Source of the DNA: a virus | Virus record (IMG/VR): IMGVR_UViG_3300020421_000006 | Coordinates: 34,449 to 98,448 of that record | Reading direction: 5' to 3' (one strand) | Length of the DNA: 64,000 nt | Part shown: positions 1 through 21,116 of the stretch, in pieces | Layout of the letters: the number at the start of each line of letters is the position of its first letter | Position numbering within the stretch: the stretch's first letter is position 1 | Notes under the pieces: model-generated | Told to the model about the DNA's origin: nothing | Database searches by the model: none | What the model saw: only the letters and a program-made list of their open reading frames with translations | Program-made: the position numbers and the translations under genes

Positions 1-460
1 CACTTAGATTATTTGAGATCATATCGTTAATCTCAAAAGATGCCATGTTCCACATTTGAAAATCAGCAAGTCCGTTCTTCATGTATTGTCTTGTTAATTC
101 TATAAGTCCTAAATCTCTCATTAGATAAAATCTATAATCAAACCAATCGTATACAAACTTAGCAGAGATATTATTTTGTGTTGTAATATTTCCTGATGTT
201 ATCCAATGTTTGTGCCTATATCTATCTTCACGTGTAACTGAACTCCACATAATAATAACTAAATCATCTTTGTTAAAATTATGTCTTAAATTTGCTTCTA
301 CTAGTTGATTAGAAATATAAAGATTACCTGCTCCGGCTTTTCCGTAGTTTATAGTTTCTGGTATTTCTTGTTTAATGATATCAGACCAAGTTGGCCATTT
401 GTATCTAGTAAAACTACAACCAAATGTAAAACATCTTTTATAGTTATTAAACTGTTTCAA
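1..460 (-). CDS. SGNH/GDSL-like hydrolase, partial (C-terminus outside window)
   Basis: This reading frame is open from the window edge up to a TTG start at 460-458. GGAG lies 6 nt upstream of the TTG, and the start overlaps the end of the 412-codon gene by 14 nt. No ATG in this frame lies before the conserved part. The N-terminus reads FTFGCSFTRYKWPTW, where GCSFT resembles block I (G-x-S-x-T) of SGNH/GDSL hydrolases; an LVIIMWSS strand follows. SGNH enzymes typically remove or transfer acyl groups on glycans or lipids. The position at the end of a glycosyltransferase/radical-SAM block suggests a sugar-modifying role, which is inference. The remaining catalytic Asp/His would lie beyond the window, so the family call is tentative. 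That the frame codes is well supported; function is moderate to weak. Confidence 0.55.
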   Translation of the reverse strand, partial: MKQFNNYKRCFTFGCSFTRYKWPTWSDIIKQEIPETINYGKAGAGNLYISNQLVEANLRHNFNKDDLVIIMWSSVTREDRYRHKHWITSGNITTQNNISAKFVYDWFDYRFYLMRDLGLIELTRQYMKNGLADFQMWNMASFEINDMISNNLS

Positions 461-1685
461 AGTATTTCTCCGCTGATTTTATACAATTAGTTATTGCATC
501 TTTATAAAAGTCTTGTGTTCTTGCATGTTCAAAGTTATGTTGTACAGCAGGATATGCATATAGCAAACGTCTTTGTTTAGTTTTAAAATCAAGACTAATC
601 CACTCTTTTAAATTTTGTTGCACAGTCTTAAAACGTTCTAATGGATCTACAATTAAGTCATAGGGCTTATTAAACAATTTAAAGTCTGTTCTAAATCCTA
701 ATGAACGTAAACCAGCAAGTGTTCCTCTTGATGCAAGTGTAATAAAAGGATGTCCTAGCATAATAGGTTTAAACAATTTTTCTGTTAAAAATACGCTGTC
801 GTCAAAGAATATAGTTTCAGTAACAACTGTTAAAAGCGTATTAGCATACAAGTCTGGATTAAAACTATTAGCAGCATTTGTAACACTCCAGTCTCCATCA
901 AAGAATCTTGGAGTAAATTCTTTATGTCTTGCATAATTCTCTTTACCAATCAAGTATTCTGCATTTAGATCTTCACCTTCTTTAACTTCGTTACATGTAA
1001 CAATCCCTTTGTCTAATAGCCCACTAATGCCTAAGTCTGTTACGTGTGCAGCTCTATGCGGTCTATGCACCCTATTTAAACTGTTAAATGCTTTGCTTTC
1101 TTCTCTATACATTGCACCTTTAATTAATGGCTTGTAGGGCATAGATTGATTCATAAATATCTTTAAGAAGTGATTTGAATATGCAACTTCAAACATACGT
1201 GGATTACCTGTTTTCTCTAACCAATCTTCGTAGTGTTTTTCAACTAGTTGACTTCCTTGCATAATGTAAACAGATAGAGGCGGCAGGCCTCTTTCGATTG
1301 CAGCATCGTGTATACGCTGCCACCCATCACCTAATGCTTTATGTATAAAAGGTCCTCCCTCTTTATCAGCACCAATTACAAGTCTTAATCTTTTTTTCTT
1401 TACTAGTTTTACAATATTCTTTGGCAGTGCAGATATAATATCTGTTGGACCATTATGTACAGAACTAAGTCCAGTCCACCAACAAGGATCTCCATTAACA
1501 TCAATATAATATATGCCAGGCGAATGTTGACAGTTTACTAATTCTTGTACAGGCTTCTTCATACTGCGCAATGTATTTTTAATAATTGTTCCTTTAGAAG
1601 TTAGATACCAATCAGTTTCATCTGTAGTAGAAAGATGAGCTAAATTTTCTGTTGATTCGTCCATGGTATCAAAATAAAAATTCAT
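447..1685 (-). CDS. Glycosyltransferase-like protein with GT10-like C-terminus
   Basis: This 412-residue protein has a C-terminal segment (about 295-345) with FLTEKLFKPIMLGHPFI followed by RSLGF. That pattern matches the nucleotide-sugar-binding half of fucosyltransferase-like GT10 proteins (EKxFKPI...PFI...GF). The N-terminal half is not recognised. It probably transfers a sugar in the host cytoplasm, but donor and acceptor are unknown. The ATG overlaps the stop of the upstream radical-SAM gene as TAATG, so the two are likely translationally coupled. The downstream partial hydrolase overlaps its end. Marine T4-like phages often carry such proteins near tail-fibre genes; decoration of virion proteins or host glycans is an inference. 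Confidence 0.6.
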   Translation of the reverse strand: MNFYFDTMDESTENLAHLSTTDETDWYLTSKGTIIKNTLRSMKKPVQELVNCQHSPGIYYIDVNGDPCWWTGLSSVHNGPTDIISALPKNIVKLVKKKRLRLVIGADKEGGPFIHKALGDGWQRIHDAAIERGLPPLSVYIMQGSQLVEKHYEDWLEKTGNPRMFEVAYSNHFLKIFMNQSMPYKPLIKGAMYREESKAFNSLNRVHRPHRAAHVTDLGISGLLDKGIVTCNEVKEGEDLNAEYLIGKENYARHKEFTPRFFDGDWSVTNAANSFNPDLYANTLLTVVTETIFFDDSVFLTEKLFKPIMLGHPFITLASRGTLAGLRSLGFRTDFKLFNKPYDLIVDPLERFKTVQQNLKEWISLDFKTKQRRLLYAYPAVQHNFEHARTQDFYKDAITNCIKSAEKYFETV

Positions 1686-2881
1686 TATATCAATCCTTTC
1701 AGTTCAGGAAATGTTTCCTCAAAGTTTTCATTTCTAATTATGTCATAGTGGTGTGTACGATTTTTAAACTGCTGTCTTGTTTTTTCATTAAACTTAGAAT
1801 TGTTTATATAACTTACAACACCTTTTAGCATATCGTCAATATGCTTGTTATATTTTTTGCTTTGTATCTTTTCAATAATTTCTGTTTTAAATGCATCATC
1901 TAATACTGATGCTGTGTAATATTCTGGATATTGTATATTATACATCTGTGGGAAATAATCTTCGATATCAAAGAAGCCCTCATTTAACACATAATCAAAA
2001 AAGTCTGTTAGTGTGTATAAATTAAAAACACTAACAACTGTATTGCTTTGCATTTTAATGTGCGGACATTCTTGCTTTATCTTTTGTATATTACTTTTAA
2101 TTAAATTCCAATCTGTTCCTGATCTAATATATTCTGCTCTGCTTCCATAATGATCTAAACTTGCACCTATGTGTATAGTATCAAAGTGTTTCCATAGCTC
2201 TAAGACGCTCTTAGACTTGTATTTTAGCACACTACAGTTACTATTATACTCTAACTTCACATTTGTTTTACCTATTGAAATAAGGTGTTCTAGTATATCA
2301 TAGTGCTTATCTGTAAGCAAAGGTTCGCCACCAGCAAAGTAAAATGTTTCAATGTCTTTAAAGTGTGGAAGGAATTGGTTATACAACTTATCGTTGTCAT
2401 TGCCATCTGCTAAAATGAAGATAGGTTTCTTTTCACCTTGTGCATTATCTTCTTGCGCCCATGTGCTAGAATATGTGCTACTACAACTACGGCATTTAAA
2501 GTTACAAATATTACTCCAGCGTACATCAAAGTGTTTTAGATGCATTACTGGCAATGTTCCGTCATCTTCTGTATGTGCTATTAGCCCTGTGGTATCACCA
2601 AAGTATGGATTGCTGTTAGCATGTATTCTTGAACTTTCTGCGCCGCCATCTTCTATGTTATAACATGCTTGGCATTCTACACAACGTTTTCCTTCAAGCA
2701 TGTTTTTACGCATCTGCTTATAAGGTTTATCATTCCAAATTTCTTTGATTGTGTGTTGTCTTACATTACCTAAGGGTTTGTCCCATTCACCAACACAACA
2801 AGGTAGTACTGACCCGTCTGGATTTACATACATGTGCAACCAAGGTAAAATGCAAAATGTATCAGACCTTTTCGCAGTCAT
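1685..2881 (-). CDS. Radical SAM enzyme with N-terminal SPASM/twitch-like cysteines
   Basis: This 398-residue protein has the radical-SAM cluster motif CNFKCRSC with cysteines at 126, 130 and 133, and the SAM-binding GGEP at 184-187. An N-terminal segment carries further cysteines (C10, C28, C29, C67, C70, C73) in the context CILPWLHMYVNPDG...LPCC. This is typical of SPASM/twitch proteins that hold an auxiliary 4Fe-4S cluster. Such enzymes start radical chemistry on peptides or sugars; the substrate here cannot be read from sequence. The start overlaps the end of a second radical-SAM gene by 20 nt and the stop is coupled as TAATG to a glycosyltransferase-like gene. The set therefore looks like one pathway. 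The family call is confident; the role is unknown. Confidence 0.85.
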   Translation of the reverse strand: MTAKRSDTFCILPWLHMYVNPDGSVLPCCVGEWDKPLGNVRQHTIKEIWNDKPYKQMRKNMLEGKRCVECQACYNIEDGGAESSRIHANSNPYFGDTTGLIAHTEDDGTLPVMHLKHFDVRWSNICNFKCRSCSSTYSSTWAQEDNAQGEKKPIFILADGNDNDKLYNQFLPHFKDIETFYFAGGEPLLTDKHYDILEHLISIGKTNVKLEYNSNCSVLKYKSKSVLELWKHFDTIHIGASLDHYGSRAEYIRSGTDWNLIKSNIQKIKQECPHIKMQSNTVVSVFNLYTLTDFFDYVLNEGFFDIEDYFPQMYNIQYPEYYTASVLDDAFKTEIIEKIQSKKYNKHIDDMLKGVVSYINNSKFNEKTRQQFKNRTHHYDIIRNENFEETFPELKGLI

Positions 2882-4229
2882 AGTAGAAGTCCTTTAAGTC
2901 TGGAAATGTATTAGTGAAGTTAACATTTCTTCTTTTGTCGTATTCAGTAAACCACTGATAAAAATCTTTTCGACCTTCTGTTAATCTGTTAACATCGTAC
3001 TGTGTTCTTTCCATATAGTCTACTACACGTCTAAACTTTTCATACTCTAGTTCACTAAATTTATGCCTATCTTGATCGTCCATGTTATCAACAATAAACT
3101 GTAAATGCTTTTTCATGTACGGCATAAATTTATCTTTAGGTAAGATGTTCATATCGTATTGTAGCGGCTCTTTTAAATACGGAGTATCAAATCTAATACG
3201 CTGCCACTTAGTTTGATTATCACTATTATACTTTATACGCCAGTCTAAAAACTTTTGCAATAATGTGCTAAAGTTAGTTACAGTTAAAATATTAAATGTA
3301 ACCATAAATGTTAAAGGCATATTAGTTCTAGTCATGTACATGTCTAGATTCTTTTCCCATAGCTCTAAGTCTAAGCCTGTTCTAATATACTCTGCTTGTG
3401 GTCCCCATGTATCAATACTAGTAAAGATTTTAAAGTCTTTGATACAGCCTTTTTCAACTAAACTGTTTACTTTGTCAGTGAACCGTTCAATAAGAATAGG
3501 CTTAACACCTAAGTTAGTATTAATGTTTAATTCTAAGTTAGGACAAGGATTCTTTTCAAGCTCGTCAAATACTCTCCATGTGCTTTGCTGTAATAAGGGT
3601 TCGCCTCCTGTAATACGTAAAATCGTAAGTGTCTTACGCAATTCAGGCCACCACTTCCACCATGCTTTAACATACGGATTTGTTTCTTCATCTTTGTGTA
3701 TTTTAAACCAGTCAATATCATTCCTATGATTCTTAACCATAGTGTACGGACCTTCTTTTTCAATTTCTTTGTAGTAACTGCTAGAATGTTTAGGGTGACA
3801 ATAACCGCACTTAAAATTACATTCATTACCAAACGAAACTTCAACATACTGTGGATTTACATTCGCCATTGGTTCTTGTTTAATTGCATTAAATCTTTCA
3901 GGCGTGTATATACTTGCGTTACGTTCTTTACGATCGCTTATATAGTCTTTACCCATACATTCAACATTCCAACAGTATTGACATCCGCTAGGCTTTTTGC
4001 CGTCCATCATTTCTTGGCGTTCTGCTTTTTTCTGCTGTGTATTATGTAACGCACTAGGATCTGCTTCTATTTCATGCAAAGGTATTTTGTGTGGTGCAGG
4101 GTGATAACAACTATGTGTTTCTCCTGTACCTAAATACAACGTTGTATGATGCCATTTGGCCATACAGAATGTAGGACTTAGCTCGTCCATAATAGGTATA
4201 AATTTTTCTATCCTATCTTTATCCTGCAT
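2862..4229 (-). CDS. Second radical SAM enzyme with SPASM/twitch-like N-terminus
   Basis: This 455-residue protein is distantly paralogous to the following gene. It has CNFKCGYC (C137, C141, C144) and GGEP at 208-211. Extra cysteines lie at 22, 41, 83, 86 and 91, with the order FCMAKWHH...CYHP...CQYCWNVEC matching the auxiliary-cluster segment placed before the core. The region after GGEP has the alternating helix/strand pattern of a partial TIM barrel. The start overlaps the end of the repeat-containing glycosyltransferase gene by 11 nt. Two non-identical radical-SAM enzymes side by side suggest successive steps on one substrate or a heteromer; this is inference. It might also act on a host molecule rather than on the virion. 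Confidence 0.85.
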   Translation of the reverse strand: MQDKDRIEKFIPIMDELSPTFCMAKWHHTTLYLGTGETHSCYHPAPHKIPLHEIEADPSALHNTQQKKAERQEMMDGKKPSGCQYCWNVECMGKDYISDRKERNASIYTPERFNAIKQEPMANVNPQYVEVSFGNECNFKCGYCHPKHSSSYYKEIEKEGPYTMVKNHRNDIDWFKIHKDEETNPYVKAWWKWWPELRKTLTILRITGGEPLLQQSTWRVFDELEKNPCPNLELNINTNLGVKPILIERFTDKVNSLVEKGCIKDFKIFTSIDTWGPQAEYIRTGLDLELWEKNLDMYMTRTNMPLTFMVTFNILTVTNFSTLLQKFLDWRIKYNSDNQTKWQRIRFDTPYLKEPLQYDMNILPKDKFMPYMKKHLQFIVDNMDDQDRHKFSELEYEKFRRVVDYMERTQYDVNRLTEGRKDFYQWFTEYDKRRNVNFTNTFPDLKDFYYDCEKV

Positions 4230-5859
4230 TAAACTTTTCCTTTAACCAATCAAAGTCATTTATCTTACGTAGATTTTCTGGCTTGTTACTATTTGCAACT
4301 CCGTATTCTCTACCAGCTTTTGCTCCTGTTAGTGCGTACTCTGCAAAAGGTCCTTTTGCTTCTTTACACCAGATATCTAAACGTTTCTCAGTTTCCATAT
4401 TATCCTGTCTGTTAATAGATCTACTAGCCAATTTAACACATTCTCTGAATGCACTTTTCCATGTACTGTATTCATCAGTATCAAACACACTAATGTTACT
4501 TACTTCGTTCATTGCTCTGAACTTTGTAGATAGGCTTGTTGTCATGTCTGTAGTAAAGTCTGTAATATCCATAACTGCTTGTCTTGGTAATAATTTTACA
4601 CCACCGTAACCATATTCTAAATCATTTACTGCGTTTTTACTTCTCCATACATGCACAGTGTCTTGATCCCAAAACGGAACAATATGATTAAATTTAAAGT
4701 GTTTAATTAATTGAGCATCGCCATCAACTACCCAAAACATATTTGTTTCACATAATCTTGCTGCTTCCATATGTGCTTGATGAATACCTTTTACATCACG
4801 TATCCAACGTAACTTTATACTAGGATCTTGTACCCTTATAATATCTTGTAATTCTTTAAAATGCTTATCTGCATTTTTTTCTTTATAACTTATAAACGCA
4901 ATATCATAAGGTGTTTGCTCACTACTATTTTCTTTTACATCTTTTTTGTTAGTAAAGAATCTTGATTTAAATTCACGTTCTGTTACAGGACGTTCTTTTG
5001 AAAACAATGTAACTCCGTCATAGAACTGGCCATTGTTTTGAAAACAGTGTGTAAGTTTTCTATGATAACTGTCATACTTAGGAATGTAATAATCAAACTT
5101 AAAACTATCAATAATATTTAGATCAGGATACACACCCCAGAACATATCACCTGTTGCTTTTTCTTGTGCGTTTTGATAATCTTCAAAAGTTGCTAATTGA
5201 AATATTTCCCACTTCTTGGGTTCACTTGCTACTATATTGATTTCTTTTTTATTTGTAAAAAATCTATAATCAAATTCACGTTTAGCAATTTTATTATCTT
5301 TATGACAAATAAAGATACCATCATACGTTTTGTTATTTTTAAAAACATGTACAACATCTTTATCCCAAAAAGGAACTTGGTATTGAGGTATATCGTTTGG
5401 AATTACGTCATCAGGTATACACAATATAAATTCTGATTGTGCAATTTCTTGTGCTGTAACAAGTCCTTCATAACTATCTAATTTAACAATATCATACGGC
5501 TTAGGTGTACTTGCTACTATATCAATCTCTTTCTTGTCTGTAAAAAATCTGTATTTCCATTCTTTGTTTGCTACATTTAAGTTTTTAGGAAATAAACATA
5601 CACCATCAAAATGTTCACCATTTTTAAATACATGAATGTACTGATCGTCCCATTCTGTAACTCTATATGTTAAATCGAAATCTTGTGTTAGATACAAATT
5701 GTCCCATACTACCCAAAAGTTTTTTGTAAGAGACTTTTTGTTTAGTGTTTCATAACTTTCACAATTTTCTATTTTTTGTGCGTGTGGAAATCTTGCCTTG
5801 AAATTACTCCATGCTATTTCATTAACGTTCCCGTCACTGACAAAAAAGATATCATACAT
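4219..5859 (-). CDS. Glycosyltransferase-like protein with three degenerate tandem modules
   Basis: This 546-residue protein is built from repeated units. RFFTDKKEIDIVAS (104-117), RFFTNKKEINIVAS (199-212) and RFFTNKKDV (300-308) mark the ends of three modules of about 95 residues. Each has a WD/HVFKN/YDG core. The last unit (about 317-546) is complete and resembles the 301-residue neighbour. It has an xDIAFISY start, VVDGDAQ (DGD at 379-381, DxD-like) and YGYGGVKLLP, compared with DAD and GNGGLKLW in the neighbour. The last module is therefore probably catalytic and the first three shortened copies, perhaps for acceptor binding. GT-A-type glycosyl transfer is inferred from the DxD and fold pattern only. 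The gene overlaps the next one (8 nt) and the following radical-SAM gene. Confidence 0.55.
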   Translation of the reverse strand: MYDIFFVSDGNVNEIAWSNFKARFPHAQKIENCESYETLNKKSLTKNFWVVWDNLYLTQDFDLTYRVTEWDDQYIHVFKNGEHFDGVCLFPKNLNVANKEWKYRFFTDKKEIDIVASTPKPYDIVKLDSYEGLVTAQEIAQSEFILCIPDDVIPNDIPQYQVPFWDKDVVHVFKNNKTYDGIFICHKDNKIAKREFDYRFFTNKKEINIVASEPKKWEIFQLATFEDYQNAQEKATGDMFWGVYPDLNIIDSFKFDYYIPKYDSYHRKLTHCFQNNGQFYDGVTLFSKERPVTEREFKSRFFTNKKDVKENSSEQTPYDIAFISYKEKNADKHFKELQDIIRVQDPSIKLRWIRDVKGIHQAHMEAARLCETNMFWVVDGDAQLIKHFKFNHIVPFWDQDTVHVWRSKNAVNDLEYGYGGVKLLPRQAVMDITDFTTDMTTSLSTKFRAMNEVSNISVFDTDEYSTWKSAFRECVKLASRSINRQDNMETEKRLDIWCKEAKGPFAEYALTGAKAGREYGVANSNKPENLRKINDFDWLKEKFNAG

Positions 5860-6757
5860 ATTTTTTACTATAATAAGTTTGGCCTAGGTTTAATGCTTCG
5901 TCATATAAATCCATTGTATACCTACTTGCATCAGGTTCTAACCAAACCCAATCAAGACCTAAGTTTATATTGATTTCATTACCTAACCGTTTAATTTCTG
6001 CAATACATGCTTCGCTGTCTTTTGAAAAGTGTTCTGCTTTTTCTTTCCATATATCGCCAAGTATTTCAAAGTCTCTAACTTGTATATGATCCCAGTCTGT
6101 ACAGTTAGTCATATATGTTCCTTGCCTTGCACCTAATATTGACATAATACCGTTTTCTACATGTGAGCCAACAGTTGACCACATTCTAAGTCTGTGAATA
6201 TTGTGCCACCAAATTCTTTCTTTAATTTCCATAGGCGGAAGTTTTAATCCATCGGACAGTGTCATTTTAACACCTTCTCGAAAACCTGCTCTCCATGCAT
6301 GGTATGGAGTTGCATTTACTTTTGTATCACTGTATGTCATAGGAAAGTTTCTGTAACCTGTTTCCCAACAAAAATCAACTTGAGCTCTTTCGCTATCTGC
6401 GTTTTCATGCGTTTTCATATTAAGTAAATGATCTTTAGACCATAACTTTAATCCGCCGTTACCGTAACGTAAACCATTAACAGTATTCTTTCCACACCAA
6501 CTATAAACTTTAATTTCTTCTTCTGACATGTCTAAGTCAAGATTAAAATATTCAGGATATACTATATTGTCTGCATCAACTGTAAGCAACCAATCAGTTT
6601 CAGATTGCTCTGCACATGCTTTATGTGCATGGTCACTTCCTTTTACACCATGTACACGTTTTGCCCAGGGTAATTTATTACACAGATCTGCATAATGCAA
6701 ATCAGCAAACGGTTCATCATACGATAAAAAGAATACGTCGAACTCGACTACTCTCAT
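5852..6757 (-). CDS. GT-A-like glycosyltransferase
   Basis: This 301-residue protein opens with FDVFFLSYDEP and continues to WLLTVDADNIV, with a DAD triplet at 61-63. That fits the metal/nucleotide-sugar site of GT-A glycosyltransferases. A GNGGLKLWS segment follows, as in the C-terminal module of the 546-residue neighbour. The acceptor is unknown. The ATG at 6757 has a clear upstream GAGGAG and directly follows the stop of the 216-residue gene. Sharing a module with its neighbour points to local duplication within the block. Confidence in a glycosyltransferase-type fold is moderate; no donor can be named. Confidence 0.6.
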   Translation of the reverse strand: MRVVEFDVFFLSYDEPFADLHYADLCNKLPWAKRVHGVKGSDHAHKACAEQSETDWLLTVDADNIVYPEYFNLDLDMSEEEIKVYSWCGKNTVNGLRYGNGGLKLWSKDHLLNMKTHENADSERAQVDFCWETGYRNFPMTYSDTKVNATPYHAWRAGFREGVKMTLSDGLKLPPMEIKERIWWHNIHRLRMWSTVGSHVENGIMSILGARQGTYMTNCTDWDHIQVRDFEILGDIWKEKAEHFSKDSEACIAEIKRLGNEININLGLDWVWLEPDASRYTMDLYDEALNLGQTYYSKKYV

Positions 6758-7408
6758 TTAAATCTCCTCTAGTACATAGTTTTTAAACAGTCTACGAGTA
6801 AACACACTAAACTTTCCTGTTATGTCTACATCATCTACTGTTACAGAATTACCTGTTAGCTCATCAAGTGTAACATCAAATGTTTTTTGCGGAAAGTGCG
6901 GATCGTTATAATCAGCTATTGTAAAAGATAAAGTTGTATCTCCTTGCCAAAAAACATTTCTTGGTGTTGCTGGTTGCCACTGATCATCTAAAACTTTTGT
7001 GCCGCCATATTCCTCGCTTAGTTCTACAGTAAGTTTACTACTACCTTTATTGTATGTAAGATAAATGTCTGGCTTTACTTCTTCATCTAAGTAACGTTTA
7101 TCAATAACTCTATGCAGTACATCATCAATCTTTGTTAAAGTTTTTTCTTCAGTGATTTCAAACTTACCTTCACTAGTGTCAAAGAAACAATTATTAATAT
7201 GAATCTCACCATTAATAATTTTAATAGCAAGATCCTCTTCAACCTCAGCGATGTTTTTACTGTATTCCATTTCTATCGAAGCATACGGGCCTACTGATAT
7301 TAACTGGCCTGTGTCTGCGTCAAATGCTGCTCCAAACCTACGCTCTGGCTCTTTATAATTCTTGAGCCATTCGTCGAAGTCTGGCATAAACTCTTCTATT
7401 TCTTCCAT
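6758..7408 (-). CDS. Hypothetical protein of the modification block
   Basis: I do not recognise this 216-residue protein. The N-terminus is acidic (MEEIEEFMPDFDEW). The middle reads as short beta strands (INGEIHINNCFF, DIYLTYNKGSSKLTVEL), and the C-terminal half contains TTLSFTIADYNDP and KFSVFTRRLF. There are no transmembrane segments, signal peptide or metal-binding cysteine pairs. It may be a beta-rich structural or carbohydrate-binding accessory protein. It lies between two glycosyltransferase genes, overlaps the upstream one by 13 nt and abuts the downstream start, so it is part of the same operon. That it codes is well supported by frame and spacing. Confidence 0.6.
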   Translation of the reverse strand: MEEIEEFMPDFDEWLKNYKEPERRFGAAFDADTGQLISVGPYASIEMEYSKNIAEVEEDLAIKIINGEIHINNCFFDTSEGKFEITEEKTLTKIDDVLHRVIDKRYLDEEVKPDIYLTYNKGSSKLTVELSEEYGGTKVLDDQWQPATPRNVFWQGDTTLSFTIADYNDPHFPQKTFDVTLDELTGNSVTVDDVDITGKFSVFTRRLFKNYVLEEI

Positions 7409-8235
7409 GCTATTTCCTCCAGTACATTAACTGTTTCTAAAGTCATTTTATTTTTTTCAACATAATGTACAATGTCGTTTTGTTGATAACTACCTATTTT
7501 TAATTTGCCTTTATCATTTAAGTAGTAGCCTACGTGATCTGAAAACTTATCAGCAGCCCAAGGCCAATTTTGTACAGCACCTTTCATGTGTACAACTCTT
7601 GGGAAGCTCAAAGGATACGCAATATCATCTGTAATATCTAATATTTTTGCAGCCATTGAAAATGCTTCATCTGTTCCAATTACTTTAGGTCTATGTTTTG
7701 TTAAAAACAAATTACTGTATTCGTTTGGATTGTCCATTATAGAACGTTGTAAAGCAAAGAACTCACTTGCTAGTTTACTATCTTTTTTGAAGAAAGTAAA
7801 AAATGAATATAAGTTAGGTAATTCATTTGCAGTAAATGTTCTTCTATAGTAATCGCTAGTTACTTCTTCACCTCTGTAAGTGTATGCTTTGTTAGCAACA
7901 TACAATTCAGAATGTTTAATAAAATAATCAATCCAATGACTATAATCTCTAAAGAACAACATGTCTGCATCTAAGCATACAGTATGTTCCCACGGTGAAA
8001 GCTCGTCCATGTAAGAACGGCCGTCCCAAAAACCTTTTTTATCCCATTCAATAACTTCATCAAACACCCATGTAGATTTAAAATTTTCTATTTGGGTTTT
8101 GTCATCAATTACTAATGCGACTTTATCGTAACCTTCTTTTTGTGTATTCTTAATACTTAATGCAAGTGCATACGCCATTTGTGCATAATTATATTCTTCA
8201 GAAGTTGCAACAACTATTAGATATCCAAAGTTCAT
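7396..8235 (-). CDS. GT8-like glycosyltransferase
   Basis: This 279-residue protein starts with a Rossmann-like GYLIVVATSEEY strand. It has HTVCLDADMLFFRDY, with DAD at 89-91 preceded by a hydrophobic strand and followed by the aromatic/Arg segment usual in glycogenin/GT8-type enzymes. Downstream are GTDEAFSMAA and FPRVVHMKG, matching the D-E and H-x-x-G positions near the donor site of that fold. It likely uses a nucleotide sugar and a divalent metal. The start overlaps the stop of the similar upstream gene as ATGA, so the two are probably coupled and may work in sequence. Acceptor unknown. Confidence 0.65.
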   Translation of the reverse strand: MNFGYLIVVATSEEYNYAQMAYALALSIKNTQKEGYDKVALVIDDKTQIENFKSTWVFDEVIEWDKKGFWDGRSYMDELSPWEHTVCLDADMLFFRDYSHWIDYFIKHSELYVANKAYTYRGEEVTSDYYRRTFTANELPNLYSFFTFFKKDSKLASEFFALQRSIMDNPNEYSNLFLTKHRPKVIGTDEAFSMAAKILDITDDIAYPLSFPRVVHMKGAVQNWPWAADKFSDHVGYYLNDKGKLKIGSYQQNDIVHYVEKNKMTLETVNVLEEIAWKK

Positions 8236-9080
8236 ATCAACTCCATTAGTTTATCGAAGTTTCTCTCAATGCTTTTTTTATTCATTACATGTACATCTCT
8301 ACCTGTAGATGAAGCAGCTACCTGCTCATTAGTTAATAAAAATTGTAATGTATTGTCTTTTACATCAAATAAAATATCTCTATCTATTGTAGAAAACACT
8401 GGCGGCATTTTATATTCAGTATCTACTTCTTGAAAACCATTTAGTATATGATTAGCAATTGCAAAACTAATATCATTTCTATACATTCTGCTATCAAATC
8501 TATATGTGTCTGCAAAGAACTTATAATTTTTTTGTATGTATTGCACTAAATCAAAAAGTACTTTTGTTTGTTCATTCTTGGTAAACATAACTGTTGTTGC
8601 CCAAAGTAGTTTAACTCCAGTATCCGAAACATACTTGTCATGGTAACCTGCTCGAGTTCCCATAATATCATTATACTCATGCGATATTAAAAAGTCTTGT
8701 TCAACATCCCAATAGTTGTTTAGTGTATCTGAAAATGTTAGATAATCGCAATCTAACAATAATGTTCTTTCATAAGGTGTAATATCCCAAACATTTGGTC
8801 TGTTTGAATTATCAAAAGGTACCGCTTCAAAATCATTTCCATCATGAAGGTTTCTGTATTGCTGTGTTGGAGGACGCTCTACAAAAATAATACTATCAAA
8901 GATTTCTTCTGCTTTATCTGCGGTACCGATTTCTTCCATATAATCAACAGTTGATTTATCTGTGATTAATGAAACTGGATAGCCGAGATGCTTTTTGGCA
9001 AGGCCGCCTGCTACCAATGCTAGTTTAGAATAATCTAAACTTCGGCTGTTATGAGCAAATATTACAATTCCTTTATTCAT
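8232..9080 (-). CDS. GT8-like glycosyltransferase, second copy
   Basis: I prefer the ATG at 9080 (282 residues). GAAG lies 6 nt upstream, and this start leaves a 1-nt gap to the upstream stop. A TTG at 9092 would add four residues. The protein begins MNKGIVIFAHNSRSL. It has YERTLLLDCDYLTF with DCD at 110-112 as the DxD metal site, and later MYRNDISFAIANHIL in place of the GTDEAF segment of its neighbour. It is distantly paralogous to the 279-residue protein. The metal-site replacement D-C-D is tolerated in such families. Substrates are unknown. Local glycosyltransferase duplication is a recurring feature of this block. Confidence 0.6.
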   Translation of the reverse strand: MNKGIVIFAHNSRSLDYSKLALVAGGLAKKHLGYPVSLITDKSTVDYMEEIGTADKAEEIFDSIIFVERPPTQQYRNLHDGNDFEAVPFDNSNRPNVWDITPYERTLLLDCDYLTFSDTLNNYWDVEQDFLISHEYNDIMGTRAGYHDKYVSDTGVKLLWATTVMFTKNEQTKVLFDLVQYIQKNYKFFADTYRFDSRMYRNDISFAIANHILNGFQEVDTEYKMPPVFSTIDRDILFDVKDNTLQFLLTNEQVAASSTGRDVHVMNKKSIERNFDKLMELI

Positions 9081-9081
9081 A

Positions 9082-9432
9082 CTACACTTCAATAAGTTTT
9101 TCTACAGATCTGCTCTTTTTGAGCTGCTGGTATTCTTCGTAATATTCTAATGTTGATGTGATGTATCTATCGAGTATGATATCTTTAAATTCTGCAAGAT
9201 CTTCAACCAATATAGGATTATCATTAATGTCAAGTAATACTACACCTTCAGTTCTATCTGCTGAAAGTAGCATTTGAACAAAGTTAATAAGCTCTCTATT
9301 GATTTTGAAAATTCCGCCGTTAACACCATAAGTTAATCTAGCGTCAATTTTTTCCTTTAGAGTTTTACGCTGTACAGCAAAAGTTTCTCTGTACTTGCTA
9401 AAATCCAAGGCTTGTTTTAATTGTTCTTCCAT
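9082..9432 (-). CDS. Conserved-looking small phage protein, first gene of the modification block
   Basis: This is a 116-residue protein of unknown function. It contains YGVNGGIFKINRELINF, then VVLLDINDNPILVEDLAEF and a charged helical C-terminus ending in LKKSRSVEKL. The pattern looks like a small mixed alpha/beta virion or assembly protein rather than an enzyme. The start is firm: GGAGGA sits just upstream of the ATG, and a CATAAATA late-promoter-like box lies at 9461-9468. It is therefore probably the first gene of the transcript that runs through the glycosyltransferases. This placement next to the tail-fibre cluster suggests late expression. Confidence 0.6.
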   Translation of the reverse strand: MEEQLKQALDFSKYRETFAVQRKTLKEKIDARLTYGVNGGIFKINRELINFVQMLLSADRTEGVVLLDINDNPILVEDLAEFKDIILDRYITSTLEYYEEYQQLKKSRSVEKLIEV

Positions 9433-9460: not shown

Positions 9461-9468
9461 TATTTATG
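9461..9468 (-). promoter_or_regulatory. Late-promoter-like box (CATAAATA)
   Basis: On the minus strand the box reads CATAAATA, a one-base variant of the T4 late consensus TATAAATA. It lies about 28 nt before the 9432 start, in the 58-nt gap after the 342-residue structural gene. It could drive the whole 9432-to-1 block. gp55, the sigma factor that reads such boxes, is encoded in the window. Confidence 0.5.
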
Positions 9469-9490: not shown

Positions 9491-10519
9491 TTAACTGACT
9501 ACGAATCCGCCTACAGTTACGGAAGGAGTTTGGATGTCAAATCCTTGTGATCCTGAAGGATAAAGATTGATGTTACCAACTGCTTTTCTGGTAACAGTTT
9601 GAAGATAAAGTGAAGCAGGGCCTACTAAATCAGGACCATAAGTACCTGGTCCTTGTTGTGGAGTACCTGATGTTGATGGTCCACCTAATCCAACGTGATC
9701 GTCATTGTAAACTGCTGCCATTTCGAGTTGATACGCAGTACCACTTGAATTATCTAATACTCCAGGTGTTCTTGCATATAATCTATAATAGTTTGCATTG
9801 TAAGGACTACTTGCAATAGCTGTGTACCAAGGTGTGCTGTAAACGTTTGTACATCTAAAAAAGTTTCCATTATCATTTGGATTAACACCTGTTGCTGGTT
9901 GTTGTCCTCCAAACGACTGTGTACTTGCTGTCTGTAGTAAACTTCTCCAAGAAGCATCTTGATCTGAACCGCTAATACTGCTCAAACTACTTGTAAGTTG
10001 AATTTGTCCACCACTATTAAAATAATGTCTAGCATCTGCTGCTGTTGGCCAAGTAAAAGTAACTATTACTTGTGCAGAAGTTGACCATGTTCCTGTATAT
10101 ACTGCATTACTGTGTGCTGTACCTGATGCTACTGATGCTGGTGGTATAGTATATTTTGCAGCCTCAAGTGCAATAATTAAATCATTCCATCTTCTGTAAG
10201 GCTGTGTATTATATGTTGCGTCATTAGTAACAGTATTTGCTTTAATTTTTTGAGAAGTACTAATGTTATTAGGCCAACTTCCCCAATTAGTAGGAGGATT
10301 TGAACCATATATATGCCTGTAAGCATTATACATATCTGTAATTAATCTACCATATTCTTCTACAGACACCTTATCCGAAACACCAACACCTGAAGAGTTC
10401 ATATATTGTCCCCATCCATATGTGGCATCACCGCCATCAGCAGGTCCCATCACTTGCTCAAGGCGAGTGTATAGCGCATTGTAGTCGTTTCTGCTAATTG
10501 TTGCGTGTACGGTTGTCAT
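9491..10519 (-). CDS. Tail/virion structural protein, paralogue of the 300-residue neighbour
   Basis: This 342-residue protein has an N-terminus TISRNDYNALYTRLEQVMG followed by YGWGQ. It aligns by eye with TDLNSLRNKIAEVMG and FGYGQ in the adjacent protein. Both then share a TWSTSAQVIVTFTWP / AWSTSAEYVLTVTF segment, an aromatic FNSG/WNSG turn and a Thr/Ser-rich beta C-terminus. These features fit phage structural proteins, possibly distal tail fibre or adhesion parts. No catalytic motif is visible. AAGGAT lies upstream of the ATG and a late-promoter-like box at 10539-10546. A tail-fibre or decoration role is inferred from neighbours. Confidence 0.6.
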   Translation of the reverse strand: MTTVHATISRNDYNALYTRLEQVMGPADGGDATYGWGQYMNSSGVGVSDKVSVEEYGRLITDMYNAYRHIYGSNPPTNWGSWPNNISTSQKIKANTVTNDATYNTQPYRRWNDLIIALEAAKYTIPPASVASGTAHSNAVYTGTWSTSAQVIVTFTWPTAADARHYFNSGGQIQLTSSLSSISGSDQDASWRSLLQTASTQSFGGQQPATGVNPNDNGNFFRCTNVYSTPWYTAIASSPYNANYYRLYARTPGVLDNSSGTAYQLEMAAVYNDDHVGLGGPSTSGTPQQGPGTYGPDLVGPASLYLQTVTRKAVGNINLYPSGSQGFDIQTPSVTVGGFVVS

Positions 10520-10538
10520 ATAATATCCTTAACAGCAG

Positions 10539-10546
10539 TATTTACT
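10539..10546 (-). promoter_or_regulatory. Late-promoter-like box (AGTAAATA)
   Basis: The minus strand reads AGTAAATA, sharing the TAAATA core of the other boxes. It lies in the 38-nt gap before the 342-residue structural gene, about 20 nt from its start. The weaker first two bases lower confidence. Confidence 0.4.
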
Positions 10547-10557
10547 ACAACAAGTGT

Positions 10558-11460
10558 CTATGTTGCACTAATGCTGGTTCCAGAATACGATGGACTCGTA
10601 ATAGAAAATGCAGCACCACTTGGTTGTAATGTTCCTGTAGCTTTTAATTCTTCTACATCAATACTAAGTGTGCCGTCGACTGAATCTCCTGGCGCAGGTG
10701 CACCTGGATCAACATAATTATCAGATAGTAAAACTTTAAAGTTAAACACTGAAGCTGTTCCTGCGGAATTACTTGCCACATCACACTTTGCTTGAATCTT
10801 GTAATTGTTGTTTGAGTATGGCGTACTGGCAGATAAGTTGTATAAATCTTGGTATGTATTAGTAAGCATGTATATGTTATTCAGCCCATCTGGTAATCTG
10901 CCGCCAATTGATTGCCTTCCTACAGTTGAAAGCAAACTTGTCCATGCACCGTTCTGTTGAGATGCTGTACCTAAACTTCTTCCTGTAGTAAATCTTAGTC
11001 TACTTCCAGAGTTCCAAAAATATCTTGCTTCGTTAGCATTACTAAATGTTACAGTTAGCACGTATTCTGCACTTGTACTCCAAGCAGACGTATAACTTTT
11101 TGTATCTTTAATAGATGTTGTTAATAATCCAGCATCACAATCAAATCTATCATTTCGACATTCGTCAGCAAGAGTGTTATATCCATTAAAAGGATCACTT
11201 GATGATGCTGTAATAGGATCACCAATAGCAGCAATAGTTGCTGCTGGTACTACACCGTTTTGATGAAAGTAAGCATTTACAATGTCAAATCTTATTGCAT
11301 CAAAGTGTGACTTTAATACTGTTTGACCTGAAATAACTGTTGTGCTATTAACTGTTTGTCCGTATCCAAACGTTCCAACGCCGGTACCCATGACTTCAGC
11401 AATCTTGTTTCGCAGGCTGTTGAGGTCTGTTGATAGGATCTGTGCGCCTGTTGTTACCAT
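10558..11460 (-). CDS. Tail/virion structural protein, paralogue of the 342-residue neighbour
   Basis: This 300-residue protein has the same plan as the next gene: TDLNSLRNKIAEVMG, FGYGQ, a central AWSTSAEYVLTV strand with FWNSGSRLRF, and a Ser/Thr-rich C-terminal region. It also has an FRCD/CDAG-type cysteine pair that the paralogue lacks. The start codon overlaps the stop of the 587-residue tail-fibre gene as TAATG, so production is likely coupled to that fibre protein. The function is probably structural, as an extra fibre or decoration subunit. The two copies differ enough that they may bind different targets or form a heteromer. Confidence 0.6.
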   Translation of the reverse strand: MVTTGAQILSTDLNSLRNKIAEVMGTGVGTFGYGQTVNSTTVISGQTVLKSHFDAIRFDIVNAYFHQNGVVPAATIAAIGDPITASSSDPFNGYNTLADECRNDRFDCDAGLLTTSIKDTKSYTSAWSTSAEYVLTVTFSNANEARYFWNSGSRLRFTTGRSLGTASQQNGAWTSLLSTVGRQSIGGRLPDGLNNIYMLTNTYQDLYNLSASTPYSNNNYKIQAKCDVASNSAGTASVFNFKVLLSDNYVDPGAPAPGDSVDGTLSIDVEELKATGTLQPSGAAFSITSPSYSGTSISAT

Positions 11461-13223
11461 TATAATACTACCGCTTCAATAACTTTTGTTCCTGAATTTG
11501 AATTGCTTTCTATTGCAATTGCAAACACGTCTGCATGACTGTCAGCTTTTGTAGCATAACCTTCCGCAGCAGCAACTAATCTATCTCCTTTAGCAATAGC
11601 GCCGAGCACCTTAACTGGTACACGCCCTTTAAGTGCAATATATGTTCCACCTTCTAACCATGAGTTCATCATAAACGCAGGCTGTTCTGAAACAACACCT
11701 AACGCTCTATCGCCTTCACTACATGCAGTAACTTCTGCGTTTCCGCCAACTGATACAACTGTACCAGGCTCATATTCTGCGTCTGCTAAATATTTCTCTG
11801 CTAAGTCAGCATATCTAGCTGCGGTTGCTGTACCTTGGAATAAGTTAGCAATTAAATCACCGCTTGAGTTTCTAGCAGCAATAGTATTTGCTGTCGCTGT
11901 TGTTTTAGCAGTTTTGTAATTAGGATCACTATCTGTTGCACTGTCATCAATTTTAATTCTATCTGCAAAAGTTGCTGTACCGTTAAAAGTATTTGCAAAA
12001 ATTACACCTGACGAATCTCTAACAACAATACTATTTCCTGAAGCAGGAACTGAAACAGATGGTGTAATACCATTCAATGCACTAGCGTCTGATGCTGTAC
12101 CAGTCAAGTTACCTTGTACTGATCCAAACAATGTACCGTAAATGTTTGCACCTACGTAACCAATGTTTTTAGTTGCACCGTCAACCATTACAGTTGAATC
12201 GTTAGCAAGTAAACTACCTTGTGTGTTACCTGTAACATTACCTGTTACATTACCTGTTAAAGGTCCTGTAAATGCATCAGCATGTACTGACGACCAAGCA
12301 AATTGTGCTGTACCTAAAGTAAACGAACTATCAATACCTGGAATAACACCTGCTGCGGTAATATCCATAATATTTTTTCTAGTTGAGCCGCCATCATTAA
12401 CAATGAACTGCATAGGATTACCAAGAACACTTTCAAAAACAATTTCGTCATCGTTTTCAACTCTTAATCTAAAGTCGCTTTGGTCACCTACTTTGTATCC
12501 TGAATCTTGGAAGTTAATTTCTTGGTTAAAAGTAATACTTCCTTTTTGTAAATATTCTGAAGCATCAATGCCGCCTAACTTTAATGCGTTAGATGAAGTT
12601 CCCCAGTATACATAATCGTCTGATGTAACACCGTTGGCATCTGCTTTAGCCATTGTAATACCTTTCTTGATCACTGTAAAGTCATCAATAGGGTTCAATG
12701 AACTGTTTAATGTAAATTCTGTTTGTGAAATAACTGCAACTGTTTTACCACCTGCATTAATTTTTAAAATTGAATGGTTTGTATTACCTGTGTCTTTAAC
12801 AACTTGTGCAATTGCTCCACTAGCACCAAGATCTGGTGATGCTTCAGGTCCTACAAGTACAAACTCTCCACCTGACCATGCATATAACTGCTTTGCAGAT
12901 GTGTCCCACCAAAGCTCACCTACTCCTAAACCTGACGGAGCAACTGATGCTACTTCAGCACCGTTGGTTGTTTTCCATTGTGAACCATCATAGAACTTAA
13001 TTTTCTTGTTTGATGCGTCAAACCATAGTTGACCTGTAACTGCTTTTGGAGGAGCAGTAGTATTTGCAAAGTTTTCTAGTAAATGTAAGAAGTTTTCATT
13101 CTGTACTTCACCGTATCCTGCGTAGTTTTTACCAACGAAACGTATATCCGTAGTGGTATCAATAGTTCCGTCTTCTACTGACGTTAAAAATGTTCCGTTA
13201 AATTTATCTACTTGGTATGCCAT
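11460..13223 (-). CDS. Tail-fibre-like protein 4 of 4, with conserved C-terminal domain
   Basis: This 587-residue protein carries the N-terminal module shared by four neighbours: TDIRFVGKNYAGYGEV (about 25-40), ENFLHLLENFAN, GQLWFD (64-69) and a second LGVGELWWD (99-107). The middle has VTGNVTGNTQG repeats common in fibre shafts. The C-terminal domain (about 470-587) starts at ARYADLAEKYLADAEYEPG and contains ALGVVSEQPAFMMNS and ALKGRVPVKV. I associate this type of fibre end with marine T4-like phages. The shared module probably attaches to the baseplate or partner fibre, and the variable part faces the host. GGAAG precedes the ATG and a GATAAATA box lies at 13251-13258. Confidence 0.75.
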   Translation of the reverse strand: MAYQVDKFNGTFLTSVEDGTIDTTTDIRFVGKNYAGYGEVQNENFLHLLENFANTTAPPKAVTGQLWFDASNKKIKFYDGSQWKTTNGAEVASVAPSGLGVGELWWDTSAKQLYAWSGGEFVLVGPEASPDLGASGAIAQVVKDTGNTNHSILKINAGGKTVAVISQTEFTLNSSLNPIDDFTVIKKGITMAKADANGVTSDDYVYWGTSSNALKLGGIDASEYLQKGSITFNQEINFQDSGYKVGDQSDFRLRVENDDEIVFESVLGNPMQFIVNDGGSTRKNIMDITAAGVIPGIDSSFTLGTAQFAWSSVHADAFTGPLTGNVTGNVTGNTQGSLLANDSTVMVDGATKNIGYVGANIYGTLFGSVQGNLTGTASDASALNGITPSVSVPASGNSIVVRDSSGVIFANTFNGTATFADRIKIDDSATDSDPNYKTAKTTATANTIAARNSSGDLIANLFQGTATAARYADLAEKYLADAEYEPGTVVSVGGNAEVTACSEGDRALGVVSEQPAFMMNSWLEGGTYIALKGRVPVKVLGAIAKGDRLVAAAEGYATKADSHADVFAIAIESNSNSGTKVIEAVVL

Positions 13224-13263: not shown

Positions 13264-13704
13264 TTACTCGTCTTCTGGTGGTAACGGTTTAGGGTAAAAA
13301 CTGTATACACCTGGTTGATCTTTGTACGTTTGAACAGCATTATTATGGTTATTAACCTTCTGCTTAACGTAGTTACGCATAGCAACAAAGTCATCTGTAA
13401 GCGGAATACCTGCGTTTTCTAAGCATTCTGCAATGATATTAAGCTGCTTATGCACGGGATACTTAACAAGAATCTGCTTGTTTACTACTTCGTCAATTGC
13501 TACTTCTTCAATTAACGGTATATCATTAAGAGATCTTACTTCTCCACTAGCATAATCGCCCCACCAATATTCATTTGCGTCATCTAAATCAATAACTTTA
13601 TGAGGTACGCCTTGCTCAGTAAGTCTTTCAGCAAACTCGCTATTATAGTCCTGGGATGAGATCACTCTTGATCTATCAGCACTAAAAATAATAATGTTTT
13701 TCAT
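13264..13704 (-). CDS. Hypothetical protein in the tail-fibre array
   Basis: This 146-residue protein begins with a strand-like MKNIIIFSADRSRV. It has an acidic/aromatic middle (DANEYWWGDY) and a long helical C-terminal part with YPVHKQLNIIAECLENAG and NHNNAVQTYKDQPGVYSFY. I do not recognise the family. Position among fibre genes and size are compatible with a fibre-associated subunit or assembly factor. Its start overlaps the stop of the oxygenase gene as ATGA, so the two form a small coupled cassette between fibre genes. Confidence 0.55.
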   Translation of the reverse strand: MKNIIIFSADRSRVISSQDYNSEFAERLTEQGVPHKVIDLDDANEYWWGDYASGEVRSLNDIPLIEEVAIDEVVNKQILVKYPVHKQLNIIAECLENAGIPLTDDFVAMRNYVKQKVNNHNNAVQTYKDQPGVYSFYPKPLPPEDE

Positions 13705-14195
13705 CTAGTTCTTCCCCAACTTAATGCAAGACTTATCTTCGGTCTTTCATTTTGTTTAATTTCTGTTACTTCGTGTTCTAAGTTCACAGGCATATCAATT
13801 AACATACCTGGGCCTTCATCTACTAAATTTCCTTTGCCTTGTTCATCGTACCAACAAAAGTGCGGAGCATCAGCTCTTAAAAATATTAGTTTAAACTTCC
13901 AATACCCGCCTGCACTATCTCTATGCCTTTTAAGATAATCACCTGGATCATATTTGTTAATACAAAAACTATCACAAGTTCTATCTTCTTCTGGAATTGA
14001 TTCTGTAATCAACTCCTTTAATTCTTTTGGCATGTTCCAACGGAACATACTTTTTAACTTACTTTCACCATAGGCAGTTACAAAATTAAATTCTTCTCCT
14101 GGCTGCCTAATAAAAAAACTGTCTTCGTTTGCCTCTACTAATTCTACTATCTCGTCAACGTTCTTACAATAGTCCGGTACTAACTTTACTGTCAT
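13701..14195 (-). CDS. 2-oxoglutarate/Fe(II) oxygenase
   Basis: I use the ATG at 14195, which overlaps the upstream fibre stop as TAATG and gives 164 residues. A TTG at 14210 would add five. The 2OG-Fe(II) facial triad is visible: H91-x-D93 in YLKRHRDSAGG and H141 in NLEHEV. R151 in RPKISLALSW is the likely 2-oxoglutarate anchor. A beta strand with HFCWYDE lies between. Length fits single-domain prolyl/lysyl-hydroxylase-like enzymes. It needs oxygen, iron and 2-oxoglutarate. Its substrate is unknown; hydroxylation of a fibre residue or of a sugar is a guess from position. Confidence 0.75.
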   Translation of the reverse strand: MTVKLVPDYCKNVDEIVELVEANEDSFFIRQPGEEFNFVTAYGESKLKSMFRWNMPKELKELITESIPEEDRTCDSFCINKYDPGDYLKRHRDSAGGYWKFKLIFLRADAPHFCWYDEQGKGNLVDEGPGMLIDMPVNLEHEVTEIKQNERPKISLALSWGRTR

Positions 14196-20471: not shown

Positions 20472-20474
20472 TTA

Positions 20475-21116
20475 TTAAACCTCCGTAAAGCCTGTTAAAC
20501 TCTGTACTCTGATTGTATAATCAACTTGCAAGAGTCTGTTCAAAGACTTTTGTACAGGGTGGAAAACCACGTGTGTTAAAAGTTTGCCTGTTCCGTTAGG
20601 ATTATACCATTTAAGTCCAAGCTCGTCGAAAACAAAGTTACTGTCCATATTAACACTATTATCAAATGCTTGTTGATCATCTGGCTCACCATAATCAAGT
20701 GTACATGTAATTACAATGTCACTGTATGTTGCTCCACTAATATGTCTAACTTCCATTTTGTTACGCACTGGATCAGCGTTTGCAATAGAGCTTTGATCAA
20801 TAACTTTAGTGTATGTTTGATTGTAAAGACTGGAGTTTGACCCAACTGTGTTAGGTGTCAAATATGTAATTAATCCTGTAGGGTCAACTGTGGTACCACC
20901 GCTACCAAACGCCATTTCGTAGACTGTACCTTCCCCTTGATTTGAAAGACTGTTAACTATTGCAACACTCATATTTTCATAGTGTATTGCATTGCGTTTA
21001 TCCTGATAAACTTCTCCAGTTTCAGGATCAAAAATCTTAATATGCCCTTCAAAATGGAACCCGCCGGTTTCATTCAATCCAGGTGCTTTTGGCGTTTTGT
21101 TTTCTTTGTTTGACAT
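20475..21116 (-). CDS. Structural protein between the giant tail protein and the fibres
   Basis: The start is placed at the ATG at 21116 (MSNKENKTP), which has GGAAG 8 nt upstream. Longer frames reach ATG 21137 and 21176. A late-promoter-like box at 21142-21149 would start RNA near 21136, downstream of those alternatives. The product (about 213 residues) has a beta-rich pattern: HFEGHIKIFDPETGEV, MAFGSGGTTVD, VFDELGLKWYNPNG and VDYTIRVQSLTG. I cannot assign it to a T4 gene. Its position suggests a baseplate or fibre-attachment component. It is followed after 3 nt by the collar-domain fibre. Confidence 0.6.
   Translation of the reverse strand: MSNKENKTPKAPGLNETGGFHFEGHIKIFDPETGEVYQDKRNAIHYENMSVAIVNSLSNQGEGTVYEMAFGSGGTTVDPTGLITYLTPNTVGSNSSLYNQTYTKVIDQSSIANADPVRNKMEVRHISGATYSDIVITCTLDYGEPDDQQAFDNSVNMDSNFVFDELGLKWYNPNGTGKLLTHVVFHPVQKSLNRLLQVDYTIRVQSLTGFTEV

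Follow-up and report, generated by a model that had tools for sequence, protein, structure and literature searches.

A conserved gene block pairing glycosyltransferase-like and radical-SAM proteins beside the tail-fibre genes of uncultured T4-like viruses

There is good support for assigning a block of genes at one end of the analysed window (the whole stretch of viral DNA under study, 64 kb in length) to a modification pathway associated with the tail fibres. This assignment is based on the tail-fibre-like gene found directly upstream of the block in all 82 loci, on the conserved late promoter box in front of it, on strong purifying selection and on the presence of glycosyltransferase (GT) and sugar-nucleotide genes. 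Our preferred reading, to which we give a probability of roughly 0.45, is that the block encodes a cytosolic glycan pathway in which a sugar altered by radical chemistry is used, probably to decorate the tail fibres.

Within the window, the block comprises nine complete genes and one cut by the window edge, all encoded on the minus strand in head-to-tail order; neighbouring open reading frames (ORFs) overlap by 1-20 bases or abut. The first-pass annotation had described ten genes with coupled starts, and the ORF positions agree with it in coordinates, strand, gene number and coupling. The operon runs 2.7 kb past the left window edge and contains 12 genes in total; the stretch that reaches beyond the window (L002:15652-18909) includes an SGNH-like gene (263 aa), a second GT10-like gene, GT10b (381 aa), and a UDP-glucose/GDP-mannose dehydrogenase gene (392 aa). 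The only gaps measure 58 bp, which holds the promoter, and 142 bp. Since the identical gene order recurs in dozens of loci at protein identities of 35-90%, the block is not a product of chance.

The late-promoter-like box, (C)ATAAATA, is located on the minus strand at 9461..9467, 29 nt upstream of unk116, the first gene of the block. ATAAATA occurs five times on the minus strand of the window, each time just upstream of a gene start, and a TAAATA box is found at the equivalent place upstream of unk116 in nearly all relatives. The late box previously placed at 9461 is therefore real and conserved, but its sequence is CATAAATA and not TATAAATA; the latter has a single exact copy in the window and was rejected as the late box in favour of ATAAATA.

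A scan of viral GT301 loci revealed an invariant core in the order unk116-GT286-GT279-unk216-GT301-GTrep-rSAM2, and this set is present in hundreds of uncultured T4-like viruses. rSAM2 was found downstream of GT301 in 42 of 42 viral loci, namely those with more than 3.5 kb of sequence downstream of GT301. The dN/dS values of the seven core genes range from 0.01 to 0.11, with rSAM2 as the slowest-evolving gene (0.01-0.04). The variable part of the block consists of rSAM1, GT10, SGNH and dehydrogenase genes. Searches of 50,697 cultured-phage records yielded no match for rSAM2, GT301, unk216, unk116 or GT279, and for rSAM1 only distant proteins (20-26% identity) from jumbo phages of Vibrio and from a single marine contig. 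Portal and capsid proteins of the virus match about 2500 records, mainly of T4-like phages, which identifies it as a T4-like myovirus. The best of these matches are jumbo T4-like phages (capsid identity 69-72%). As evidence on the host, the two proteins indicate only jumbo T4-like phages of several proteobacteria.

Four proteins of the block had been noted as glycosyltransferase-like on account of DxD motifs. The aspartates are indeed invariant in all four, which form two paralogue pairs, GT301/GTrep and GT279/GT286. GT301 (5852..6757, minus strand; invariant D61 and D63) was modelled with AlphaFold2 (AF2) at a pLDDT of 85 and a pTM of 0.85, and the model confirms a predicted GT-A fold with a DxD metal-binding motif. 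A fold search of the PDB gave 59 hits with E <= 0.001, headed by GT-A enzymes, with TM-scores of only 0.3-0.45. The best PDB match is the PBCV-1 capsid glycosyltransferase 2p6w (E 1.9e-5), which shares the GT-A fold and comes from a virus that itself attaches glycans to its virion protein; the similarity amounts to 15% identity and a TM-score of 0.33-0.45, and PBCV-1 is an algal virus whose enzyme has no radical-SAM partner. GTrep (4219..5859, minus strand) carries a glycosyltransferase domain homologous to GT301 at residues 318-544, with a VDGDA motif; N-terminal to this domain lie incomplete, degenerate copies of it. GT279 (7396..8235, minus strand; invariant D89 and D91; phrog_1903 match at 2e-6) and its distant paralogue GT286 (8232..9092, minus strand; invariant D114 and D116; true start probably the internal ATG at 9080) are putative glycosyltransferases that are homologous to each other; neither has a Pfam match, and PDB profile searches with them gave nothing of note.

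The fifth putative glycosyltransferase, GT10a (447..1685, minus strand), belongs to the variable part. Its earlier description as GT10-like stands as a motif resemblance to GT10 fucosyltransferases (TETIF...TEKxFKP...GHP, with invariant E290, E302, K303 and P313); neither GT10a nor GT10b matches the GT10 Pfam family. Much the same applies to the protein first labelled a GCSFT hydrolase (2..460, minus strand; whole gene L002:18118-18909), of which the window holds the N-terminal 153 of 263 aa. It has the SGNH-like motifs GCS and D204xH206 and evolves fast (dN/dS about 0.35), and the label reflects motif resemblance, with no match in Pfam. That GT279, GT286, GT10a, GT10b and the SGNH-like protein are without curated family support counts against the glycan reading.

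Both rSAM1 (1685..2881, minus strand; 398 aa) and rSAM2 (2862..4229, minus strand) are genuine radical-SAM proteins. They had been called SPASM-type; they are, more precisely, N-terminal-twitch enzymes. The NCBIfam model N_Twi_rSAM (NF033640; curated cut-off 170 bits) matches both over their full length, rSAM1 with 389.4 bits over residues 6-397 and rSAM2 with 317.7 bits over 18-449. The classical SPASM domain lies C-terminal to the radical-SAM core and has seven cysteines for two auxiliary clusters, whereas in the phage proteins the auxiliary-cluster cysteines precede the CxxxCxxC motif and only four or five are conserved, four of them invariantly. In rSAM1, cysteines 10/28/70/73 and 126/130/133 (CxxxCxxC) are invariant in the alignment, and PF13186 (SPASM) matches residues 10-73, ahead of the core at 123-274. 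In rSAM2, for which the Pfam search gave no PF13186 match, cysteines 22/41/83/86 are followed by 137/141/144 (CxxxCxxC) and a GGEP motif; these cysteines too are invariant in the alignment, and they are kept at 95% or more in one that takes in bacterial homologues. Within the N_Twi_rSAM family, phage rSAM2 branches as a separate clade (100/100 support). rSAM1 occurs in roughly half of the relatives that were examined, and in one phage population (L082) the two enzymes are fused into a protein of 862 aa (rSAM2-rSAM1). Among solved structures, the rSAM1 twitch domain is nearest to BtrN (E 1.4e-7), whose twitch-type auxiliary cluster domain resembles the rSAM1 N-terminus; in BtrN this domain is C-terminal and the rSAM1 core has no match to BtrN, and the reactions may differ. 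BtrN is the twitch radical-SAM dehydrogenase of butirosin biosynthesis and oxidises an aminocyclitol, a sugar-like ring.

Homologous radical-SAM/GT clusters are also carried on Bdellovibrionota chromosomes. Of 144 genomes, 41 are positive for rSAM2, and all nine GT301-positive genomes are among these 41 (p = 6e-6). The gene order is GT301>GTrep>one gene>rSAM2 in one locus (L136) and GT301>GTrep>rSAM1 in another (L133), while in a third (L138:16386-18293) a radical-SAM-SPASM protein is fused to a GTrep domain. Since the pairing recurs in bacteria and includes gene fusions, the question of the substrate is testable with defined proteins. These homologues were not accepted as evidence on the host, as Bdellovibrionota was the only phylum sampled with the profiles. 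A more far-reaching proposal, in which the radical-SAM enzyme is an obligatory partner of dedicated glycosyltransferases, places a radical-modified sugar on tail fibres and shares common descent with a Bdellovibrionota radical-SAM/GT glycan system, appears rather unlikely to us.

Peptides are the commonest substrates of SPASM/twitch radical-SAM enzymes. It might be proposed that the two radical-SAM enzymes behave as RiPP maturases towards the tail fibre, unk216 or unk116, introducing cross-links, epimers or an attachment point for later glycosylation. The two unknown proteins are invariant partners in the core; their genes are real and evolve under purifying selection (dN/dS 0.05-0.11 for both; 0.05-0.08 for unk116). 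unk116 (9082..9432, minus strand) is a soluble protein of 116 aa. unk216 (6758..7408, minus strand) is beta-rich, with C74 among its invariant residues and with conservation at its C-terminal end, and may itself serve as a protein substrate for the radical-SAM enzymes. Its model (pLDDT 76, pTM 0.55) had no significant match in a PDB fold search, its sequence matches uncharacterised phage proteins only, and a viral fold library returned only uncharacterised proteins at large rmsd, which were not counted as evidence on function. Both proteins are absent from the Bdellovibrionota clusters examined, and the N_Twi_rSAM domain order is unlike that of RiPP maturases with their C-terminal SPASM domain. 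The block is unlike a RiPP cluster also in that its tightly packed genes leave no candidate precursor gene beside the radical-SAM genes. A screen for a precursor peptide encoded elsewhere was likewise negative: a listing of all gaps and small ORFs in the record analysed gave no candidate within the block or next to it, and nothing obvious or convincing in the remainder. Taken together, we consider peptide or protein modification improbable.

The earlier interpretation, a virion- or host-directed pathway yielding an unusual sugar or modified peptide, is supported in part, as a fibre-linked pathway. The unusual sugar is favoured over the modified peptide because no precursor ORF was found, because the operon also codes for glycosyltransferases, a UDP-sugar dehydrogenase and an SGNH-like protein, and because genes for a KdsA-like synthase (PF00793), a nucleotidyltransferase and a HAD phosphatase are inserted in some relatives. 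The GT-A fold of GT301, the BtrN-like twitch domain of rSAM1, radical-SAM/GT linkage outside phages, the rSAM2-rSAM1 fusion and the finding of no transmembrane segments in the block proteins were also counted in favour of the glycan reading.

In such a glycan pathway, the block would act as a single late-expressed operon that makes and attaches a chemically unusual glycan. GT286 and GT279, soluble in the cytosol, may start or extend a sugar chain, to which GT301 and GTrep would then add further sugars. rSAM2, alone or partnered by rSAM1, might use a 5'-deoxyadenosyl radical and its auxiliary iron-sulphur cluster to modify a sugar of the chain or a nucleotide precursor, candidate reactions being oxidation (as in BtrN), epimerisation and deoxygenation. 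unk116 and unk216 would most simply be acceptors, adaptors or specificity factors, and the variable tail (GT10 proteins, SGNH and UDP-sugar dehydrogenase) may put on lineage-specific ends. The likeliest acceptor would be the phage tail fibre, whose gene or genes lie immediately upstream at 9491-13223, which would make the virion the target, followed by a host surface glycan.

The fibre-gene neighbourhood is no proof of fibre modification, as host-recognition clusters gather many cargo genes. The block may instead act late on host lipopolysaccharide or capsule, directly or via nucleotide sugars, and thereby block superinfection or free progeny from receptors, a role that has been suggested for the glycosyltransferases in the host-recognition clusters of pelagimyophages (PMC7029224). 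In line with this, the KdsA-like gene sits within the core in one relative (L049). One Bdellovibrionota counterpart (L132) adjoins family-2 glycosyltransferases and a UDP-galactopyranose-mutase-like oxidoreductase, neighbours typical of cell-surface glycan loci, and no fibre genes occur near the bacterial counterparts, observations that fit a cell-surface glycan equally well. However, the block contains no membrane-bound glycosyltransferase, flippase, polymerase or lipid-carrier enzyme, the core is constant over very diverse phages although host surfaces vary, and its position after the fibre genes is fixed. Host-surface remodelling is the less probable reading, though a serious competitor.

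A further alternative is that the glycosyltransferases and radical-SAM enzymes modify the DNA of the phage or produce a diffusible metabolite, with no relation to fibres. The phage does encode QueE and GTP cyclohydrolase I of the 7-deazaguanine route, where radical-SAM chemistry already acts on nucleotides, but more than 4 kb separates these genes from the block, and their region is read from the opposite strand. The block itself is late and fibre-linked, and no domain for DNA binding or base modification was detected in it, which makes this alternative very improbable.

If tail fibres are indeed decorated in this way, hundreds of uncultured aquatic viruses would share a constant enzymatic sugar modification, and the understanding of their adsorption would change, since host range depends on phage fibres and host escape is directed at them. 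It would also be the first functional lead for the N-twitch radical-SAM family.

The host-recognition cluster of pelagimyophages and marine T4-like phages has been described as a hypervariable island (PMC7029224). Like the block, it belongs to T4-like phages, lies by the tail fibres and contains many glycosyltransferases, a UDP-glucose dehydrogenase and radical-SAM cassettes. The block differs in its invariant seven-gene core, in a radical-SAM gene always coupled to two related glycosyltransferases and in having a bacterial counterpart. Many radical-SAM genes have also been described in T4-like marine environmental viral genomes, with 12 in TARA_ERS488813_N000010, which the available portion of the report ties to Fe-S metabolism (PMC5332604); glycosyltransferase pairing and the N-twitch family are features of the block that this portion does not describe. 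Several radical-SAM genes per uncultured T4-like phage are common to both, relatives of the block having up to ten matches.

Portal and capsid comparison grouped the virus, whose IMG/VR record comprises 98,448 bases (the window being its positions 34449-98448), with T4-like myoviruses. The nearest relatives by these proteins were the jumbo T4-like phages Phosso, 2.275.O, CBB and GAP32 (48-72% identity), joined by PA5oct for the portal. The contiguous ten-gene block described in the first-pass annotation was recovered in full, with all ten ORFs on the minus strand and either abutting or overlapping by 1-20 bases. The operon extends to the left past the window edge with an SGNH-like protein (263 aa), a GT10-like protein (381 aa), the GT10 and SGNH labels being motif-based, and a UDP-glucose/GDP-mannose dehydrogenase (PF00984, 2e-18). 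The late box suggested near 9461 also held up: promoter box CATAAATA is located at 9461 and is kept 5′ of the first gene in relatives, and all five minus-strand ATAAATA motifs of the window sit ahead of gene starts. No transmembrane segments were found in the block proteins, indicating a soluble enzyme set. Four paralogue pairs are present in the block, namely rSAM1/rSAM2 (3e-39), GT301/GTrep (8e-36), GT279/GT286 (about 1e-7) and GT10a/GT10b (3e-42).

Both radical-SAM proteins match NCBIfam NF033640 over their whole length (rSAM1 389 bits, rSAM2 318 bits; cut-off 170). They had been annotated as SPASM-type enzymes, of which the radical-SAM assignment stands; since the domain for their auxiliary iron-sulphur cluster, which has four invariant cysteines, lies at the N-terminus, ahead of CxxxCxxC and GGEP, they are N-terminal-twitch rather than classical SPASM proteins. 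The closest PDB match of the rSAM1 N-terminal domain is the BtrN twitch domain (1.4e-7), and that of its core, in part, is viperin. In one phage population, represented by L081 and L082, whose sequences are identical across 9 kb, rSAM2 and rSAM1 are fused into a single 862-aa protein.

GT301 (window 5852-6757) has a predicted GT-A fold (pLDDT 85), and its top PDB match, at E 1.9e-5, is 2p6w, a capsid glycosyltransferase of PBCV-1. Residues 318-544 of GTrep (window 4219-5859) form a complete domain of the GT301 family, preceded by degenerate partial copies of it; many relatives are shorter (about 350 vs 546 aa), with fewer repeats. For unk216, the structure model was moderate (pLDDT 76, pTM 0.55) and a PDB fold search gave no significant match. 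Peptide modification with unk216 as the substrate appears less likely; the small precursor peptide whose search had been proposed was found neither in nor beside the block, and the virus record contained no obvious one.

Viral stretches recruited numbered 185 for rSAM1 and at least 597 for GT301. Because of near-duplicates among the viral loci, independence is overstated by two counts: rSAM2 lies downstream of GT301, with GTrep between, in 42/42 GT301 loci with more than 3.5 kb downstream, and a tail-fibre-like gene precedes the core in 82/82 loci. As rSAM1 occurs in only 20 of those 42, the invariant core is unk116-GT286-GT279-unk216-GT301-GTrep-rSAM2. Just one strong N-twitch radical-SAM protein is present in some of the long records, among them one spanning 186 kb. 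In a deeper viral lineage (L049, L062, L066, L082), other genes break up the core and the GTrep domain is found farther downstream, and the stretch L063 has rSAM2 and rSAM1 without the glycosyltransferase part directly upstream. Against three close relatives, dN/dS was 0.01-0.04 for rSAM2, 0.04-0.06 for rSAM1, 0.04-0.11 for other core genes, 0.15 for GT10b and 0.35-0.39 for SGNH. Judged by sequence comparison, the core of the block stays constant while its end changes. Among the cultured phages searched, rSAM2, GT301, unk216, unk116 and GT279 had no matches and rSAM1 had five, all distant.

A pattern scan for rSAM2 across 84,980 bacterial and archaeal genomes yielded four contigs from Bdellovibrionota-type MAGs (38-40% identity). 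Profile sampling of bacteria covered this one phylum: 41 of 144 genomes matched rSAM2 and nine GT301, all nine within the 41 (hypergeometric p = 6e-6, to be read as a guide since genomes are not independent). Gene orders include GT301>GTrep>one gene>rSAM2 (L136) and GT301>GTrep>rSAM1 (L133); rSAM1 and rSAM2 overlap in L108, a GTrep domain is fused to a radical-SAM/SPASM protein in L138, and the L132 cluster adjoins family-2 glycosyltransferases and a UDP-galactopyranose-mutase-like oxidoreductase. These linkages and the fusion imply that a functional tie between the two enzyme families exists outside phages, independent of fibre genes. In the tree, all phage rSAM2 proteins group in a single clade (100/100 support), which sits on a long stem and is separate from bacterial rSAM2. 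Bacteriovorax-type genomes (L084-L087, L117) carry the rSAM2 homologue as a fixed, housekeeping-like chromosomal gene, with neighbours named by eye as PEP-synthase-like, nucleotidyltransferase-like and Obg.

The enzyme set is late-box-associated, fibre-linked and soluble, and its glycosyltransferases and radical-SAM enzymes are strongly constrained. Sugar-nucleotide genes accompany it, namely the dehydrogenase in the block and a KdsA-like synthase, a nucleotidyltransferase and a HAD phosphatase in relatives. The radical-SAM enzymes would alter a sugar which the glycosyltransferases would place on an acceptor, probably the tail fibres encoded just upstream, and the variable tail of the block may supply lineage-specific end groups. 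The main rival to fibre modification is modification of the host surface, as proposed for similar clusters in PMC7029224, where glycosyltransferase-rich host-recognition clusters and radical-SAM cassettes are described from marine T4-like phages. One marine T4-like genome has 12 radical-SAM genes according to PMC5332604. A limited literature search, which does not prove novelty, turned up no account of the invariant core, of its N-twitch assignment, of the fusions or of a counterpart in Bdellovibrionota.

Several other genes were observed in this phage and its relatives. In the whole records behind L049, L063, L066 and L082 (G007, G010, G011, G012), radical-SAM matches number 8-10 per record; these include a B12-binding radical-SAM protein of 713 aa (L063:14399-16540) and, in G007 and G011, ORFs of roughly 830-860 aa with two weak matches apiece. 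L049 carries KdsA/DAHP-synthase-type, HemE and HemC genes in and near the core (2925-3698, 4693-5634, 20377-21168; PF00793 1e-50, uroporphyrinogen decarboxylase 5e-71, porphobilinogen deaminase 9e-66), the latter two being haem-pathway genes carried by a phage. To the left of the window, L002 of the same record encodes GTP cyclohydrolase I (6566-7249) and a QueE-like protein (10213-11250), both confirmed, and a 514-aa protein (2422-3966) presumably resembling the tRNA-guanine-transglycosylase-like DpdA; 7-deazaguanine DNA modification is probable in this phage. The tail region contains one 4594-aa ORF (window 21145-34929), very large for a T4-like phage. A 215-aa protein encoded between portal and prohead genes (window 59210-59857; phrog_30607, function unknown, 6e-25) looks enzyme-like rather than structural. 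Between two tail-fibre genes, a 169-aa protein (window 13701-14210; phrog_2297, 2e-6) has a 2-oxoglutarate/Fe(II) dioxygenase-like motif and, on that motif, is a possible fibre hydroxylase.
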